Origin: Aliarcobacter cryaerophilus
Lineage (GTDB): Bacteria; Campylobacterota; Campylobacteria; Campylobacterales; Arcobacteraceae
Length of the DNA: 64,000 nucleotides
Assembly (NCBI RefSeq): GCF_014352935.1
Contig: NZ_CP060694.1
Location: 930,001-994,000, forward strand
Direction: 5' to 3'
Program-made: the position numbers and the translations under genes
The notes under the pieces: model-generated
What the model was told of the DNA's origin: nothing
Database searches by the model: none
Seen by the model: the letters and a program-made list of their open reading frames with translations, nothing else
Shown here: positions 38,780 to 45,781 of the stretch, piece after piece
Layout: every line of letters begins with the position of its first letter
Position numbering within the stretch: the first letter of the stretch is position 1

Positions 38780-41107
38780 ATGAATTATCTAAAAATACTT
38801 GGAAGTAGTGGCAATAAATCAAAGAATTTTGGTACTACTTCTTTTCAAATCTCAAATGACACTGCTATTGATGCTGGAAATATAATAAATTCTTTAGATG
38901 ATGAAGCCTATAAAATAAATCATATTTTTGTAACACATGCTCATTTAGATCATGTAAGTGATATTCCTTTTATGTTGGACAACTATTTTACAAAAAGAGA
39001 AATACCTCTTACTATTTATGGCTCATTAGAGACTATCCAATTTTTAAAAGAGCATATTTTTAATAATAAAATTTGGCCAGATTTCTCAAATATTAAGCTT
39101 TTGAATAAAGATGAAAATACTCTTTTATTTAAAGAGTTAAAAGAAAATGAAGAGATAATTCATGGTAAATTTAAAATAAAAGCTATAAAAACAGAACATA
39201 CTGATGGCTCTTTTGGATATATTGTTTCTAAAAATAGTAGTAGCTATATAATAAGTGGAGATACTGATTTTAATGATAATTTAATCTCTCATATAAATAA
39301 TACAAAAAATCTAAAAGCTCTTTTTATTGAGTGCTCTTTTCCTAATAGTTTAGAAAATATTGCAAAAGTAAGTAAACATTTAACTCCTAATAGTTTAAAA
39401 ATGGTTTTGAAGAAAATAGAGAATAAAAATCTAGCTATATTTTTATATCACTTAAAACTTGTGCAACAAGATGTTTTAAAAAAAGAGATAGAAAATTTAG
39501 GTATTTTTAAAAATGGTGGAAAAATTTTAGAAGATGGAGATATTATTCATATAGATGATTTAAAAGTTCAATCAAAAATAGAAGATATTGAACTTTTTGA
39601 TAGAGTTATGGATATAAATTTAAAGTTATCAAGTGAAAATGATAAAGAACATTTATATGAAATGATTTTAACTCTAATAAGAGAACTTACAAAAAGTGAT
39701 GCAGGGACATTATATTTAATAAGTGATGATAAAAAACATTTAGATTTTAAAGTAGTTCAAAATGAAACTCTTAATATATTTTTAGGAACAAAAGAGGAAA
39801 AAATATCTTGGAATCCTTTACCTCTTTATCTTGATAATGGTGAAGAAAATAGAGCTATGGTAGCTGTTGTTTGTGCTTTAGATAAAAAAATTATAAATAT
39901 TTCAGATGTTTATAATAGCAAAGATTATAATTTTGAAGGTACAAAAGCATTTGATAAAAGTAAGAATTATCATTCTAAATCGATGTTGGTTGTTCCTTTG
40001 GTAAATCATGAGAATGATGTAATAGGTGTTATACAACTTATAAACAAAGGGATAAAAGATAAAAATAGTATCTATACTTCTTATGATGAAAAGATAATAA
40101 AAGCTCTATCTTTACAAGCTGCTATGGCTTTGACAAATACTATTTTAATAGATAGTTTAGAAAACTTTTTGGAAAGCTTTGTAAATTCTATTGCAAATGC
40201 AATTGATGCAAAATCAAGACATACTTCAACACATATTACAAAGATGGCAAAATTAGCTCCTATGATTGCAAATTCAATAAATGAAGATAAAACAATATAT
40301 AAAGATATAAACTATTCTAAAAACGATTTAAAAGAGATTGAACTAGCTGCAAAACTTCATGATGTTGGAAAAATATCAATACCTGAATGGGTTATAGATA
40401 AGAGTACAAAACTTCAAAAACTTATAGATGGATTTGAGCTTATCAAGTTAAGAGCAGAGATAATAAAAAGAGATTTAAAAATAGAATTTTTAGAAAATAA
40501 ATTAACCAAAGAGAGCTATGAGTATAGTTTACAAAATATTGAAGATAGTTTAGAGTTTATAGGAAAAGCAAATATAGGTCAAGAGTTTATGAGTGATGTT
40601 GATATTAAAAGAGTTGAAGATATATCTTTATATAAATATTATGAAAATAATATAGAAAGGAACTTTTTAAGCGATGATGAAGTTTATAATATATCAATTA
40701 GAAAAGGTACTTTAACAAAAGAAGAGAAAGATATTATGAATTCTCATGCAACACTGTCTTATGAGATGTTGAGTGCATTACCATTTCCTAAAAAGTATTC
40801 AAATATTATGCATATTGCTGTAAATCATCATGAAAAATTAAATGGAAAAGGTTATCCTAGAGGATTAAGTGAGCAGGAGATAGCTTTAGAGGATAGAATT
40901 TTAATTCTAGCTGATATTTTTGAAGCACTTAGTTCAAATGATAGACCATATAAAGGTGTTAAGAAACTAAGTGAAATATTTAAAATATTAGATTTTATGG
41001 TAAAAGATGGAGAGATAGACAAAGATTTATTAGATTTCTTTAAAAATAGTAGAGCTTTTAAAGAATATTGTGAAACTGAGCTTTTAACTGAGCAGTTAGA
41101 TGTTTAA
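38780..41107 (+). CDS. MBL-fold (class II PDE-like) - GAF - HD-GYP phosphodiesterase
   Basis: A 775-residue cytoplasmic protein with three domains. Residues 1-260 are a metallo-beta-lactamase fold with THAHLDHVSDIPF (about 52-64) and SGDTDFND, matching the HxHLDH signature of class II 3',5'-cyclic-nucleotide phosphodiesterases. A GAF domain follows (about 275-455, with LVVPLVNHENDVIGVIQLIN). Residues 470-770 are an HD-GYP domain: KLHDVGKISIPEWV near 520 and HHEKLNGKGYPRGLS near 682. About 100 extra residues lie between those motifs. It overlaps the adenylate cyclase gene by eight bases. Predicted dual action on cAMP and c-di-GMP is inference. Confidence 0.88.
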   Translation: MNYLKILGSSGNKSKNFGTTSFQISNDTAIDAGNIINSLDDEAYKINHIFVTHAHLDHVSDIPFMLDNYFTKREIPLTIYGSLETIQFLKEHIFNNKIWPDFSNIKLLNKDENTLLFKELKENEEIIHGKFKIKAIKTEHTDGSFGYIVSKNSSSYIISGDTDFNDNLISHINNTKNLKALFIECSFPNSLENIAKVSKHLTPNSLKMVLKKIENKNLAIFLYHLKLVQQDVLKKEIENLGIFKNGGKILEDGDIIHIDDLKVQSKIEDIELFDRVMDINLKLSSENDKEHLYEMILTLIRELTKSDAGTLYLISDDKKHLDFKVVQNETLNIFLGTKEEKISWNPLPLYLDNGEENRAMVAVVCALDKKIINISDVYNSKDYNFEGTKAFDKSKNYHSKSMLVVPLVNHENDVIGVIQLINKGIKDKNSIYTSYDEKIIKALSLQAAMALTNTILIDSLENFLESFVNSIANAIDAKSRHTSTHITKMAKLAPMIANSINEDKTIYKDINYSKNDLKEIELAAKLHDVGKISIPEWVIDKSTKLQKLIDGFELIKLRAEIIKRDLKIEFLENKLTKESYEYSLQNIEDSLEFIGKANIGQEFMSDVDIKRVEDISLYKYYENNIERNFLSDDEVYNISIRKGTLTKEEKDIMNSHATLSYEMLSALPFPKKYSNIMHIAVNHHEKLNGKGYPRGLSEQEIALEDRILILADIFEALSSNDRPYKGVKKLSEIFKILDFMVKDGEIDKDLLDFFKNSRAFKEYCETELLTEQLDV

Positions 41108-43262
41108 AAGTAAGATAAAAAAGTTTTTAATATATGGTTTTTTTTCTTTTCTAATTTCAAGTTTTTTAATAGTTTTATATATATTTTTTCCATCACTTCT
41201 TGATTCTTTTGATAATAGAATTAGAGATTCTTATTTTATTTTCAAAGGTGAAACAAAAACTTCAAATAATGTTGTAATTATAGATATTGATGATAGTTCA
41301 ATAAAAGAGTTTGGACAGTGGCCTTGGAGTAGAAATATTTTATCAAAAATTATAGAAAATTTAACAAATTCAAATATTTCTGTAGTTGGAATGGATATTG
41401 TTTTTGCTGAAGAAGATAGAACTTCACCATCTTTAATAGCAAAAAAATTAGGTATAAATAAAGAGCTAGAAAACTATGATTTTGATTTTGCAAAAGTTAT
41501 TTCAACATCACCTGTAATTTTAGGATATAGCTTTGATATAGAAGATAATAATTCGAGTAAAAACTCACCACAAATTCCTGCAATATTTATTGAAAAAAAT
41601 AAAAATAGTGATACAAACTATTTAATACAAGCTTTTGGAACTACTTTAAATCTTCCAATATTGCAAGAAAATTCATATTCAAGTGGTTTTTTTAATATTA
41701 TTCCAGATGAAAGTGGAGTTATAAGAAGTGTTCCATTGTTGATTTCTTATAATGATACTTTGTATCCATCTTTGGCTTTGGAAATTATAAGAGCTTTAAA
41801 TGATATCCAAAAAGTTTTTGTAAACTATGATGAAAATGGAGTTTCAAATATTCAATTAGGAGATTTTTATATTCCTACAGATAAATTTGGAAGAATATTT
41901 ATAAATTATCGTGGACCTTCTAAAAGTTTTAAATATATTAGTGCAAAAGATATTTATAATAATAATTTCAAAGTGGAAGATATAGAAGGAAAGATAGCTC
42001 TTTTAGGTACAAGTGCAACAGGACTTTATGATTTAAGGGCAACTCCTTATGAAAATGTATTTCCTGGAGTAGAGGTGCATGCAAATGTAATTGATAATAT
42101 TTTGCAAGGTGATTTTATTCAAAAAGCCTCTTATCTTGATGGTGTAAATATAGTATCAATTTTTGTTCTTGCTTTTTTTGTATTCTTTTTAGTTTCAGTT
42201 ACACCTTTTATTTTAAAGCCTTTTGTTTTTTTACTATTTTTTAGTGCATATTTGATTTTTTCTTATCATGCTTTATTCTCTTATGGTTTAGTATTAAATA
42301 TAATATTTCCAATCTCTTCTATAATTTTGGCATTTGTTTTTTCTATCATAATTGATTTTTTCTATAATATAAAACAAGAAAAAGCTATTAAAAATAAGTT
42401 TGCTTCAAAAGTATCAAAAAGTGTTATGGAAGATATTTTAAAAAATATAGATAATAATGAATTTAGTGCAAAAAACAAAGAGATAACAATCTTTTTTAGT
42501 GATATTAGAGGTTTTACACAAGTTTCGGAGCAACTAAAAGCAAAGGAACTAATAGAGTATTTAAATGCTTATATGGAACCTATGAGTAGTATTATTATAA
42601 AAAATCAAGGAACTATTGATAAGTTTATTGGAGATGCTATTATGGCATATTGGAATGCACCACTTGATGTAGAAAATCATGCAGATATGGCAGTTAAAGC
42701 ATCATTAGAACAATTAGAGGCTTTAAATGAATTAAATAAAAAATTTGAAAAAGACAAATTACCAACTATTGATATAGGAATAGGGCTAAATAGTGGTGAA
42801 GTAATAGTTGGTGAGATGGGAAGTAGTTTAAGAAGTGATTATACTGTTATTGGTGATGCTATAAATTTAGGTTCAAGGGTTGAGTCTTTATGTAAATATT
42901 ATGGTTCAAAGTTAAATATAACAAACTTTACAAAAGATAAATTAAAAGAAAAATATATATTTAGATTTTTAGATTTTGTAAGAGTAAAAGGTAAAACTCA
43001 GCCAGTTGAAATTTGGCAAGTAATAGGAAGTGGTGAAGTTAAAGATGATTTAAAAAATGAACTAGAAGATTATCATAAGGCAATTGATTTTTATAAAGAG
43101 TCAAAATTTTCAGATGCTTTAGAACTTTTTAGAAAACTAGATAATCTAGAAAATAAAACAAATAAAAATATTTATAAAATTTATATAAAAAGATGCGAAG
43201 AGTTTATACAAACACCACCAAAAGATTTTGATGGTGTTTATGAACATACAACAAAGGCTTAG
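41100..43262 (+). CDS. CHASE2-domain class III adenylate cyclase
   Basis: Membrane cyclase of 720 residues. An N-terminal membrane helix (about 8-30) is followed by an extracytoplasmic CHASE2 domain (VVIIDIDDSSIKEFGQWPWS, about 56-75, to about 330) and three membrane helices (about 345-420). The cyclase domain is at 455-640: FFSDIRGFT and DKFIGDAIMAYWNAP supply the metal aspartates, the Lys of DKFIGD plus SDYTVIGDAINLGSRVE indicate ATP specificity, and the Asn and Arg of NLGSRVE are the transition-state residues. The tail ends PPKDFDGVYEHTTKA, typical of the family. Its stop overlaps that of the convergent SLAM-like gene. No CRP-type receptor is nearby. Confidence 0.93.
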   Translation: MFKSKIKKFLIYGFFSFLISSFLIVLYIFFPSLLDSFDNRIRDSYFIFKGETKTSNNVVIIDIDDSSIKEFGQWPWSRNILSKIIENLTNSNISVVGMDIVFAEEDRTSPSLIAKKLGINKELENYDFDFAKVISTSPVILGYSFDIEDNNSSKNSPQIPAIFIEKNKNSDTNYLIQAFGTTLNLPILQENSYSSGFFNIIPDESGVIRSVPLLISYNDTLYPSLALEIIRALNDIQKVFVNYDENGVSNIQLGDFYIPTDKFGRIFINYRGPSKSFKYISAKDIYNNNFKVEDIEGKIALLGTSATGLYDLRATPYENVFPGVEVHANVIDNILQGDFIQKASYLDGVNIVSIFVLAFFVFFLVSVTPFILKPFVFLLFFSAYLIFSYHALFSYGLVLNIIFPISSIILAFVFSIIIDFFYNIKQEKAIKNKFASKVSKSVMEDILKNIDNNEFSAKNKEITIFFSDIRGFTQVSEQLKAKELIEYLNAYMEPMSSIIIKNQGTIDKFIGDAIMAYWNAPLDVENHADMAVKASLEQLEALNELNKKFEKDKLPTIDIGIGLNSGEVIVGEMGSSLRSDYTVIGDAINLGSRVESLCKYYGSKLNITNFTKDKLKEKYIFRFLDFVRVKGKTQPVEIWQVIGSGEVKDDLKNELEDYHKAIDFYKESKFSDALELFRKLDNLENKTNKNIYKIYIKRCEEFIQTPPKDFDGVYEHTTKA

Positions 43263-44575
43263 AAAGAGTAATAAATATTTGTTCTTACAACATATTTATC
43301 ATATTCATAGATATTTTGATTAGAATCATTATTTATATATCTTAAAGTTGCACCTAAAGATAGGTTTTTATTTATAGATTGTAAAACACCTAAATCAAGA
43401 ATAACTTTATCATCTCTTTTTTTATTGTTATACAAAACCTCTTCTTTTATTTTGTATCTATCTTTATATAGTTCAATTCCGCTTGTAAGCATAGTTGATT
43501 TTGTAAGAGGGTACATATTTTCATATCTTAAACTTGCAAAGTTATAGTCCACATTCCAAGCTTTACCTTTATCTTTATTATCTGTTCCAAAAGCAAAAGA
43601 TAAAGTATTCATACCAAACTTTTCCGTTAATAAAACTAAACTATTTGAAAGTTCATAATAGATTGAATCTCTAAACTCATAATCAGTTTGTTTAAAATCT
43701 TTCTTAATAAGTTTTACTTTTGTTTTATAAATTAGGTCTTTATCTATTTGATAATCAAAAGAAGGAGTTATAATATAGTTAAATAAATATGTACTATTAT
43801 CTAACCAAACATAGTTGTAATCGAAAGCTAAAGATGATTTTGATTTTTGTGTATAGTAAGAAAGCCCAGTTCCAAAAACTGCAAGGCTTAAATCATTATC
43901 ATGGTCTTTGTTAAACTTTTGCATATAACCTACGAATTTATTATCCATAGTTAAATTTTCTTTAATCTTAAATGTATGATTTAAAGCTAAGATATATTCT
44001 GCAACATGATCACTTTTTTTATCTGGAATAGATAAAGGAATATTACCCCAATTTACAAAATCATCATTTGAGTTATTGTCTGTATTTGAATCATATCCAT
44101 AGCCAAAACCTAAAGTTGTTTTTAGAAAGTTTCTTTCAGATTTTTTATTTAAAGAATCTAAAGTTAATTCTATATTTTTTCTTACATTCATAGGCAAACT
44201 ATTATCTTTTAATACATCTTGATATAAAACTTCAGCTTCTTCATATCTTTTTTGTTGAAAATATGTTTGTGCAAGTTCAAGTTTTACTCTACTATTATTT
44301 GGAGTTTGTTCTAAAAGCTCTTTATATAATGTTTCAGCCTCTTCAAACTTACCTATTTCATAAGCACTTCTTGCTAAAGCAAATGTTAGATTAGAGTCTA
44401 ATTTATCTTTTTTTAAATACTCTTTAAAAGCTAAATAGCTATCTTGAAAAGCTCTATTGTTGTAACTTTCAAGAGCTTTTGCAAAATTTTCATTTGAGTA
44501 GTTTTGGTTTGCAAAAATTAGTGTAGGTAAAAATAGGGCTTTAAAAATTAATTTTTTATTTGATTTTATTTTCAT
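43259..44575 (-). CDS. TPR + outer-membrane barrel protein (SLAM/type XI secretion-like)
   Basis: An exported protein of 438 residues with a signal peptide (FKALFLPTLIFANQ). Residues about 30-150 are tetratricopeptide repeats (FEEAETLYKELLEQTPNNSR, YEEAEVLYQDVLKDN). From FGYGYDSNTDNNS (about 158) onward it is an amphipathic beta-strand domain ending in YYSF with a terminal Phe, as in outer-membrane barrels. This TPR plus barrel order is that of SLAM/DUF560 proteins, which move cargo across the outer membrane. It lies nine bases behind the FecR-domain gene, its likely cargo. Confidence 0.8.
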   Translation of the reverse strand: MKIKSNKKLIFKALFLPTLIFANQNYSNENFAKALESYNNRAFQDSYLAFKEYLKKDKLDSNLTFALARSAYEIGKFEEAETLYKELLEQTPNNSRVKLELAQTYFQQKRYEEAEVLYQDVLKDNSLPMNVRKNIELTLDSLNKKSERNFLKTTLGFGYGYDSNTDNNSNDDFVNWGNIPLSIPDKKSDHVAEYILALNHTFKIKENLTMDNKFVGYMQKFNKDHDNDLSLAVFGTGLSYYTQKSKSSLAFDYNYVWLDNSTYLFNYIITPSFDYQIDKDLIYKTKVKLIKKDFKQTDYEFRDSIYYELSNSLVLLTEKFGMNTLSFAFGTDNKDKGKAWNVDYNFASLRYENMYPLTKSTMLTSGIELYKDRYKIKEEVLYNNKKRDDKVILDLGVLQSINKNLSLGATLRYINNDSNQNIYEYDKYVVRTNIYYSF

Positions 44576-44584
44576 ATCTAGTTA

Positions 44585-45781
44585 CTACCTATTTGCACTA
44601 AAATTTACAGAAGTACCTGGATTATTTATATCAAAATTGTTTAATGTCCCAGAGATACTATTCATAGTATCTCCATAAAATTGACCTTCAGCTCTTGCAT
44701 CACTGTTGCTCATAGTTTCAAAGTACATTTGACCATTTCTTGGATCTTCATATATATTTCCATTAGCAAAACTACCATAATGTTGAATCATCTCATAGCC
44801 AAAACTATACTCTCCTGTGATATAATTGCTTCCATTTCCTATATTAAAATTTAGGTTTATATGACCACTATTTGTAACTTTATCTCCGCTAAAGCTTCCA
44901 TAAAAAGATAGTAATTGAAATTGAGATGAATTTATTTGCTCTTTTATATAGTTGGCATCTGTTAGTTGAAGTCCTGAGTTGCTCTCTTCACTCTTTTTTG
45001 CAATATCTTCATCTATTTTTGCAATATCTTGATCTATCTTTGAAATATTGTTTTCATTTTGAATATGATCTGCCCAATATCCCCAAGAGTTTTGATTATC
45101 TTGGTTTTGATTCATTTCAGGGCTTTGACTATTTTGAAAAGCTAATGGACTACTAGGATTATCAAAGTTATTTGAATTTTGGTTATTACCTAAATTATTA
45201 TTGTTTAAGTTTGAGTTTACATCTTGAAATTGTTGTTGATCAATAGGTGTTGATTGACTTGGTATTTGATTATCAAAAGTATTTACAAAAAAACCTTGTG
45301 AAACTTCTCTTGTCTCTCCAAATGAATTTACAAAAATTGCACCTTGAGTACAAAATACTCTATTTTGGTCACCATAAATTTCAGTTCCTCTTATTCCAAT
45401 AGTTGCATTTTTAGTTTTTAGTTTAAATTTTTCTGGATTAACTTTTCCAATTTGTCCTGTAATTGCATGAAAAGCGCCTTTTGAAACACTTAATTCTGTT
45501 TTTGCAGAGTTCTTATTATTTGAATCAAAGAAATAATCCTCAATTTTTAAGCTTGACTCTTTTCCTATTGTAATAATAGTGTTATCTATAAAAGTTATTT
45601 TTACTTTTGAGTTTGTTTTTGTCTCAATAAAATCATTATTACTTATTGAATCACTAATGTTTAATCTAAGTGTTTCTTCACCTCTTTTTACAAAAGCTTC
45701 ACCCTCAAGAAGTGTTATTTTCCCGATATTTGCAAAAAGTGTTGAAACAAATAGTAAAAATATAAGAATAATTTTTTTCAT
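44585..45781 (-). CDS. Secreted FecR-domain protein with C-terminal TbpB-like barrel
   Basis: A 398-residue protein with a Sec signal peptide (IILIFLLFVSTLFAN) and no lipobox. A FecR domain occupies about 20-165 (ITLLEGEAFVKRGEE, ITIGKESSLKIEDYFF, ATIGIRGTEIYG). A long Asn/Gln-rich linker (about 170-240) and a short coiled coil with a 7-residue repeat (IAKIDED) follow. The last 110 residues are strand-rich with AEGQFYGDTMNSISGTLNNF, the GxFYGxxxxxxGG(T)F pattern of TbpB-type barrels that mark SLAM cargo. AGGAGAG precedes the ATG. It is the first gene of the pair with the SLAM-like gene. Confidence 0.75.
   Translation of the reverse strand: MKKIILIFLLFVSTLFANIGKITLLEGEAFVKRGEETLRLNISDSISNNDFIETKTNSKVKITFIDNTIITIGKESSLKIEDYFFDSNNKNSAKTELSVSKGAFHAITGQIGKVNPEKFKLKTKNATIGIRGTEIYGDQNRVFCTQGAIFVNSFGETREVSQGFFVNTFDNQIPSQSTPIDQQQFQDVNSNLNNNNLGNNQNSNNFDNPSSPLAFQNSQSPEMNQNQDNQNSWGYWADHIQNENNISKIDQDIAKIDEDIAKKSEESNSGLQLTDANYIKEQINSSQFQLLSFYGSFSGDKVTNSGHINLNFNIGNGSNYITGEYSFGYEMIQHYGSFANGNIYEDPRNGQMYFETMSNSDARAEGQFYGDTMNSISGTLNNFDINNPGTSVNFSANR
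44996..45037 (-). repeat. 21-bp tandem repeat in the FecR-domain gene
   Basis: TTTTTGCAATATCTTCATCT-type units occur twice in tandem with one mismatch, encoding two copies of a seven-residue heptad (DIAKIDE, DIAKIDQ). The unit length keeps frame and extends a short coiled coil between linker and barrel. Confidence 0.8.

Follow-up and report, generated by a model that had tools for sequence, protein, structure and literature searches.

Type 11 secretion systems (T11SS) comprise DUF560/SlipAM exporters, such as Slam1/2, NilB and HrpB, and cargos such as TbpB, fHbp and hemophilin (PMC8406197, PMC12282271), in which a handle or pedestal region precedes the barrel (PMC12282271). The terms FecR, Arcobacter and Campylobacter are absent from the main text of both papers. 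FecR/LysM proteins are described as neighbours of CHASE2 kinases (PMC5192318), and NsrA is reported to mediate the sensing of a plant protein by CHASE2 cyclases (PMC13001267). In 2022, a four-gene cluster was noted in Campylobacterota as a likely single signalling pathway (PMC9239204); in the passage on this cluster no SLAM-type exporter appears, nor is the FecR protein said to carry a TbpB-like barrel.

The four genes of that cluster encode a CHASE2 adenylate cyclase, a cAMP phosphodiesterase, a FecR-domain protein and a TPR protein, and the same four are found in the window, by which we mean the whole stretch of 64,000 nucleotides of Aliarcobacter cryaerophilus DNA that was analysed. The features are as follows.

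38780..41107, plus strand: class II cAMP phosphodiesterase with GAF and HD-GYP domains, 775 aa (domain matches)
41100..43262, plus strand: CHASE2 adenylate cyclase, 720 aa, convergent with the exporter gene and overlapping it by 4 bases
43259..44575, minus strand: TPR plus outer-membrane-barrel protein, 438 aa, SLAM/T11SS-like exporter (TPR_Slam, and SlipAM via relatives)
43262..44128, minus strand: predicted beta-barrel part of the exporter, about residues 150-438 (SlipAM-homologous at family level)
44201..44491, minus strand: TPR domain of the exporter, TPR_Slam PF24575, about residues 29-125 (Pfam)
44585..45781, minus strand: FecR-domain protein, 398 aa, candidate T11SS cargo (Pfam FecR and family barrel profiles)
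44588..44917, minus strand: TbpB-like barrel domain of the FecR protein, about residues 289-398 (family profiles; AlphaFold2 model poor)
44918..45286, minus strand: Asn/Gln/Ser-rich linker, about residues 166-288, hypervariable among relatives
45287..45781, minus strand: signal-peptide-like leader and conserved FecR-type domain, residues 1-165 (Pfam FecR at 51-148)

A preliminary description of this DNA had read the two minus-strand genes as a SLAM-like exporter beside a FecR cargo with a TbpB-type C-terminal barrel. Its coordinates were right, the 9-base gap between the FecR gene and the exporter gene (44576-44584) was confirmed, and family-level profiles together with near-constant adjacency support the pair itself; it did not remark that a CHASE2 cyclase and a cAMP phosphodiesterase adjoin the pair, nor that the cluster had been described in 2022. 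FecR proteins were gathered from 104 genomes of the family, together with the DNA around their genes. A partner (FecR and/or barrel) lay within 1.5 kb of the exporter gene in 70 of 71 loci; there, the two genes were always on the same strand, in either order, and mostly less than 30 bases apart. The nearest named locus is that of Aliarcobacter vitoriensis, whose exporter is 77% identical to the one in the window, and the pair is also present beyond the home family, in several further families of the same order.

TPR_Slam was detected directly on the window exporter (39.2 bits against a cut-off of 35.2) and, at E<=0.1, on all 46 exporter relatives. SlipAM was matched by 11 of these 46 (E<=0.1), and the window exporter alone gave no SlipAM match. 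A relative from another campylobacterotal family (L150) matched SlipAM over its full length at 2.3e-25, and the relatives L149, L142 and L076 likewise scored above the SlipAM cut-off. When the window exporter, paired with its ortholog from A. vitoriensis, was compared by hhalign with the SlipAM-positive set of five relatives, four of which were scanned singly and scored 28.5-90 bits against a cut-off of 22, the alignment extended over 433 columns with an E value of 2e-41. Because of these four matches and the full-length alignment, the exporter is assigned, at the level of sequence homology, to the DUF560/SlipAM superfamily by descent. The SLAM-like reading of the TPR-barrel protein in the preliminary description holds at family level, with TPR_Slam found directly and SlipAM only via relatives. 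Single-sequence searches with both window proteins found neither key family, and tblastn of the window exporter against plasmids gave no match; it is mainly through relatives that both proteins reach the SLAM and TbpB families, as judged by profiles.

The candidate cargo carries AEGQFYGDTMNSISGTLNNF near its C-terminus. In an alignment of the last 130 residues of 48 FecR proteins, the final ~125 residues formed a single domain. Scanned singly with Pfam, 28 of the 48 C-termini matched TbpB_B_D (best 3.8e-14) and eight matched FHBP_C (E up to 1); the window C-terminus alone matched neither TbpB_B_D nor any other Pfam family. Searched against the PDB, the C-terminal profile recovered TbpB (4qq1, 1.6e-11), NHBA/GNA2132 (5o1r, 1.3e-9) and LbpB (3.4e-5), each match covering nearly the whole domain. 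A leave-group-out profile, built from 40 sequences that all lie outside the close group of the window protein, recovered residues 301-397 of that protein at E 2.4e-9 versus only 0.18 for the runner-up open reading frame of the window, and the motif, already pointed out in the preliminary description, is therefore more than chance. In all 61 scored FecR proteins the barrel ended 0-7 residues from the C-terminus. A predicted C-terminal fold other than an eight-stranded barrel had been named beforehand as one outcome that would speak against the pair; by family sequence profile, the C-terminus is TbpB_B_D-like. AlphaFold models of both barrels, made from two-sequence alignments, were poor (pLDDT about 25-35, and about 30 over the C-terminus of the FecR protein with AlphaFold2), and comparison of the poor cargo model with the PDB aligned no TbpB-type structure to the C-terminus. 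Matches of fHbp structures to this model were discarded, since they cover residues 10-107 and not the C-terminal domain.

The window pair shares with T11SS the Slam-type N-terminal TPR, the SlipAM-homologous barrel and the signal peptide, and an adjacent cargo with a variable N-terminal part and a TbpB_B_D-like barrel at its end. It differs from the described systems in the FecR domain at the cargo N-terminus, in a locus tied to a CHASE2 cyclase and a cAMP phosphodiesterase instead of TonB or haem uptake, and in its main host group, which is Campylobacterota. The assignment to T11SS rests on family-level domain homologies, adjacency and recurrence, and the same evidence makes it highly improbable that the locus holds an unrelated porin beside a FecR anti-sigma regulator. 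A BBP2_2 porin model does match 12 of the 46 exporter relatives, and FecR is known from anti-sigma factors. However, the two genes, whose rare adjacency elsewhere the preliminary description had named as part of a refuting outcome, are adjacent almost everywhere; the SlipAM and TbpB homologies stand against this explanation as well, as does the FecR protein itself, in which Pfam found no anti-sigma domain. Unlike a FecI/FecR system, where FecR has a cytosolic anti-sigma part and is partnered by FecI and FecA, it has a signal-peptide-like start and a cyclase and an exporter as neighbours. We regard this explanation as largely excluded.

The FecR domain (PF04773) spans residues 51-148 of the window protein (Pfam, 6.9e-13) and is the sole PF04773 match in the genome. 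Both this protein and the exporter begin with a hydrophobic leader closing in a ...FA site. Signal peptides and the absence of a lipobox were judged by eye; inspection bore out the earlier remark that the window FecR protein has no lipobox, and none was found in the 61 scored cargos. Between FecR and barrel, the window protein has no Pfam domain but an N/Q/S-rich linker, and in the 61 scored proteins the linker ranges from 57 to 2697 aa and essentially lacks cysteine. The first half of the FecR domain, predicted by AlphaFold with moderate confidence, aligned in the comparison of the cargo model with the PDB to 5ix9 (Z 9.4, 2.1 A, 73 residues), the cell-surface anchoring domain of a giant adhesin, which also matched the FecR domain by profile (E 4.9e-5). 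In fold it thus resembles N-terminal retention domains of the LapA/MpAFP type, and the LapA retention model (retention_LapA) matched 49 of 49 FecR N-termini. It differs from them in that the window N-terminus scored 22.5 bits, below the curated NCBIfam cut-off of 50 bits, and in that other FecR proteins match too; because four of five control FecR proteins did so, a specific LapA-retention match was rejected.

Beside the same exporter type, cargos with other front ends occur in other campylobacterotal families, one fronted by OmpA (L147, 3394-4833) and one by VWA (L150, 6606-10103). Since these fronts share the same barrel and exporter type, the C-terminal barrel is, on sequence comparison, the constant element, as expected for an export tag. 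The retention-domain likeness, together with the OmpA-fronted cargo, suggests that the FecR front end may be held on the periplasmic side. The preliminary description had favoured a soluble, hemophilin-like cargo; we found a free protein of this kind unsupported, given that FecR resembles a surface-anchoring domain and that sister cargos start with OmpA or VWA, and prefer a protein coupled to the cyclase. Further variants were seen among the fetched loci: a FecR-barrel cargo of 2991 aa adjoined by another such pair (L073:3397-12372), two FecR cargos with two barrel-domain matches each (L137:5377-7452 and L138:1291-3303), and a pair of a TPR-barrel gene and a short FecR gene in Azospirillum, with no barrel domain or cyclase nearby (L155:5875-8211).

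On the other side of the exporter, the phosphodiesterase gene precedes the cyclase gene. The class II phosphodiesterase contains the motif HAHLDH, and with its GAF and HD-GYP domains the protein may connect the breakdown of cAMP and c-di-GMP. The CHASE2 cyclase, in which class III cyclase motifs are present, is the only PF00211 match found in the genome. Among the 104 genomes of the family, it accompanied the exporter in 46 of 46 exporter-bearing genomes versus 11 of 58 without an exporter (Fisher 2e-19, a value that is not corrected for kinship and hence overstated). Within the fetched loci, the cyclase was seen in 50 of 71 and in none of the stretches fetched for the other 21, several of them far from a contig end.

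A second type of CHASE2 cyclase was also observed, with a one-domain FecR gene at a distance of 60-190 bases (genomes G077, G080, G078, G043, G049, G045, G042 and G032); no exporter match was found beside these cyclases, which indicates that the association of FecR with CHASE2 is independent of the exporter. In several of these one-domain genes, a stop codon was counted inside the matched stretch. Pairwise divergence gave partial correlations of 0.38 between FecR and CHASE2, 0.42 between FecR and the exporter barrel, 0.30 between the cargo barrel and the exporter barrel, and -0.13 between the cargo barrel and CHASE2. FecR thus tracks both, and the cargo barrel tracks the exporter barrel only, in values that are confounded by shared ancestry and transfer.

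These associations bear on another, possible but rather unlikely explanation, namely plain T11SS display. In this case the whole FecR protein would reach the surface or the medium and serve there as an adhesin or bind a ligand, and the cyclase and phosphodiesterase genes would only regulate it or be neighbours without direct contact. It draws on the same TbpB_B_D and SlipAM homologies as evidence of export, and is consistent with about a dozen pairs without a cyclase nearby and with the very long, adhesin-like cargos of up to 2991 aa. In contrast, the joint presence of exporter and cyclase in every exporter-bearing genome argues against it, as do the pairing of FecR with CHASE2 even without an exporter, known also from CHASE2 kinases (PMC5192318), and the precedent of NsrA (PMC13001267).

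The window locus is of the NsrA-CyaK type in its gene layout, since the FecR and TPR-barrel genes lie next to one for a CHASE2 adenylate cyclase. In Sinorhizobium meliloti, the gene upstream of cyaK, whose position identifies it as nsrA, combines FecR, TPRs and, possibly, a barrel at the C-terminus in a single protein. In both systems, FecR, TPRs and a barrel predicted for the outer membrane are thus encoded next to a CHASE2 cyclase, and by analogy the proposed window system would likewise perceive an outside signal. NsrA differs in being a single polypeptide of 1197 aa with a large barrel of uncertain kinship, and Pfam found no TbpB-like barrel in it. On plasmids of Shinella and Paracoccus, consecutive genes encode a TPR protein resembling the exporter, a FecR protein and a CHASE2 cyclase, and the FecR C-termini matched TbpB_B_D weakly (Shinella 0.019, Paracoccus 2.3e-4).

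This likeness could also be taken to mean a receptor without secretion, in which the TPR-barrel protein is a surface receptor and FecR its periplasmic adaptor to the CHASE2 cyclase. FecR domains of Fec systems are indeed periplasmic. In NsrA, FecR, TPR and a probable barrel are fused and are reported to act in signal perception (PMC13001267). We nevertheless consider such a receptor improbable, as it does not account for the finding that every scored cargo ends in a TbpB-like barrel, for the SlipAM homology or for OmpA and VWA cargos that share this barrel.

The explanation we judge best, and to which we give somewhat better than even credence, is that the FecR-linker-barrel protein is exported by a T11SS and coupled to a cAMP cyclase. 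From the homologies and the neighbourhood we infer export, a periplasmic FecR domain, FecR-CHASE2 contact and a cAMP output. The TPR-barrel protein would be the SLAM-type outer-membrane exporter. Recognising the TbpB-like barrel at the C-terminus of the FecR protein, it would carry this barrel, along with the variable linker, onto the cell surface. The FecR domain, right after the signal peptide, probably stays periplasmic as an anchor, where it would touch the adenylate cyclase encoded next door, at the CHASE2 sensor domain of this inner-membrane protein; the export state or surface ligand binding may then change cAMP, which the adjacent phosphodiesterase would remove. A more specific and tentative version is a two-membrane receptor, in which the cargo would remain threaded in, or tethered to, its T11SS exporter, with the barrel outside and FecR inside, and would report surface events to the CHASE2 cyclase. 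Under that version, the Shinella and Paracoccus trio of exporter, cargo and cyclase would be similar and NsrA would be, by analogy, a fused form.

If true, the reading of a T11SS-exported protein coupled to a cyclase would add Campylobacterota to the range of type 11 secretion, bring in a new cargo class and offer a physical explanation for an already known, unexplained cAMP gene cluster. To our knowledge, the ligands of CHASE2 domains are largely unknown; if the reading holds, what CHASE2 may sense is a FecR domain in the periplasm, joined to a protein that is displayed at the surface. The exporter, cargo and cyclase genes recur as a set across the phylum and also in certain alphaproteobacteria, a pattern suggesting that cAMP signalling is linked to the export or display of a surface protein.
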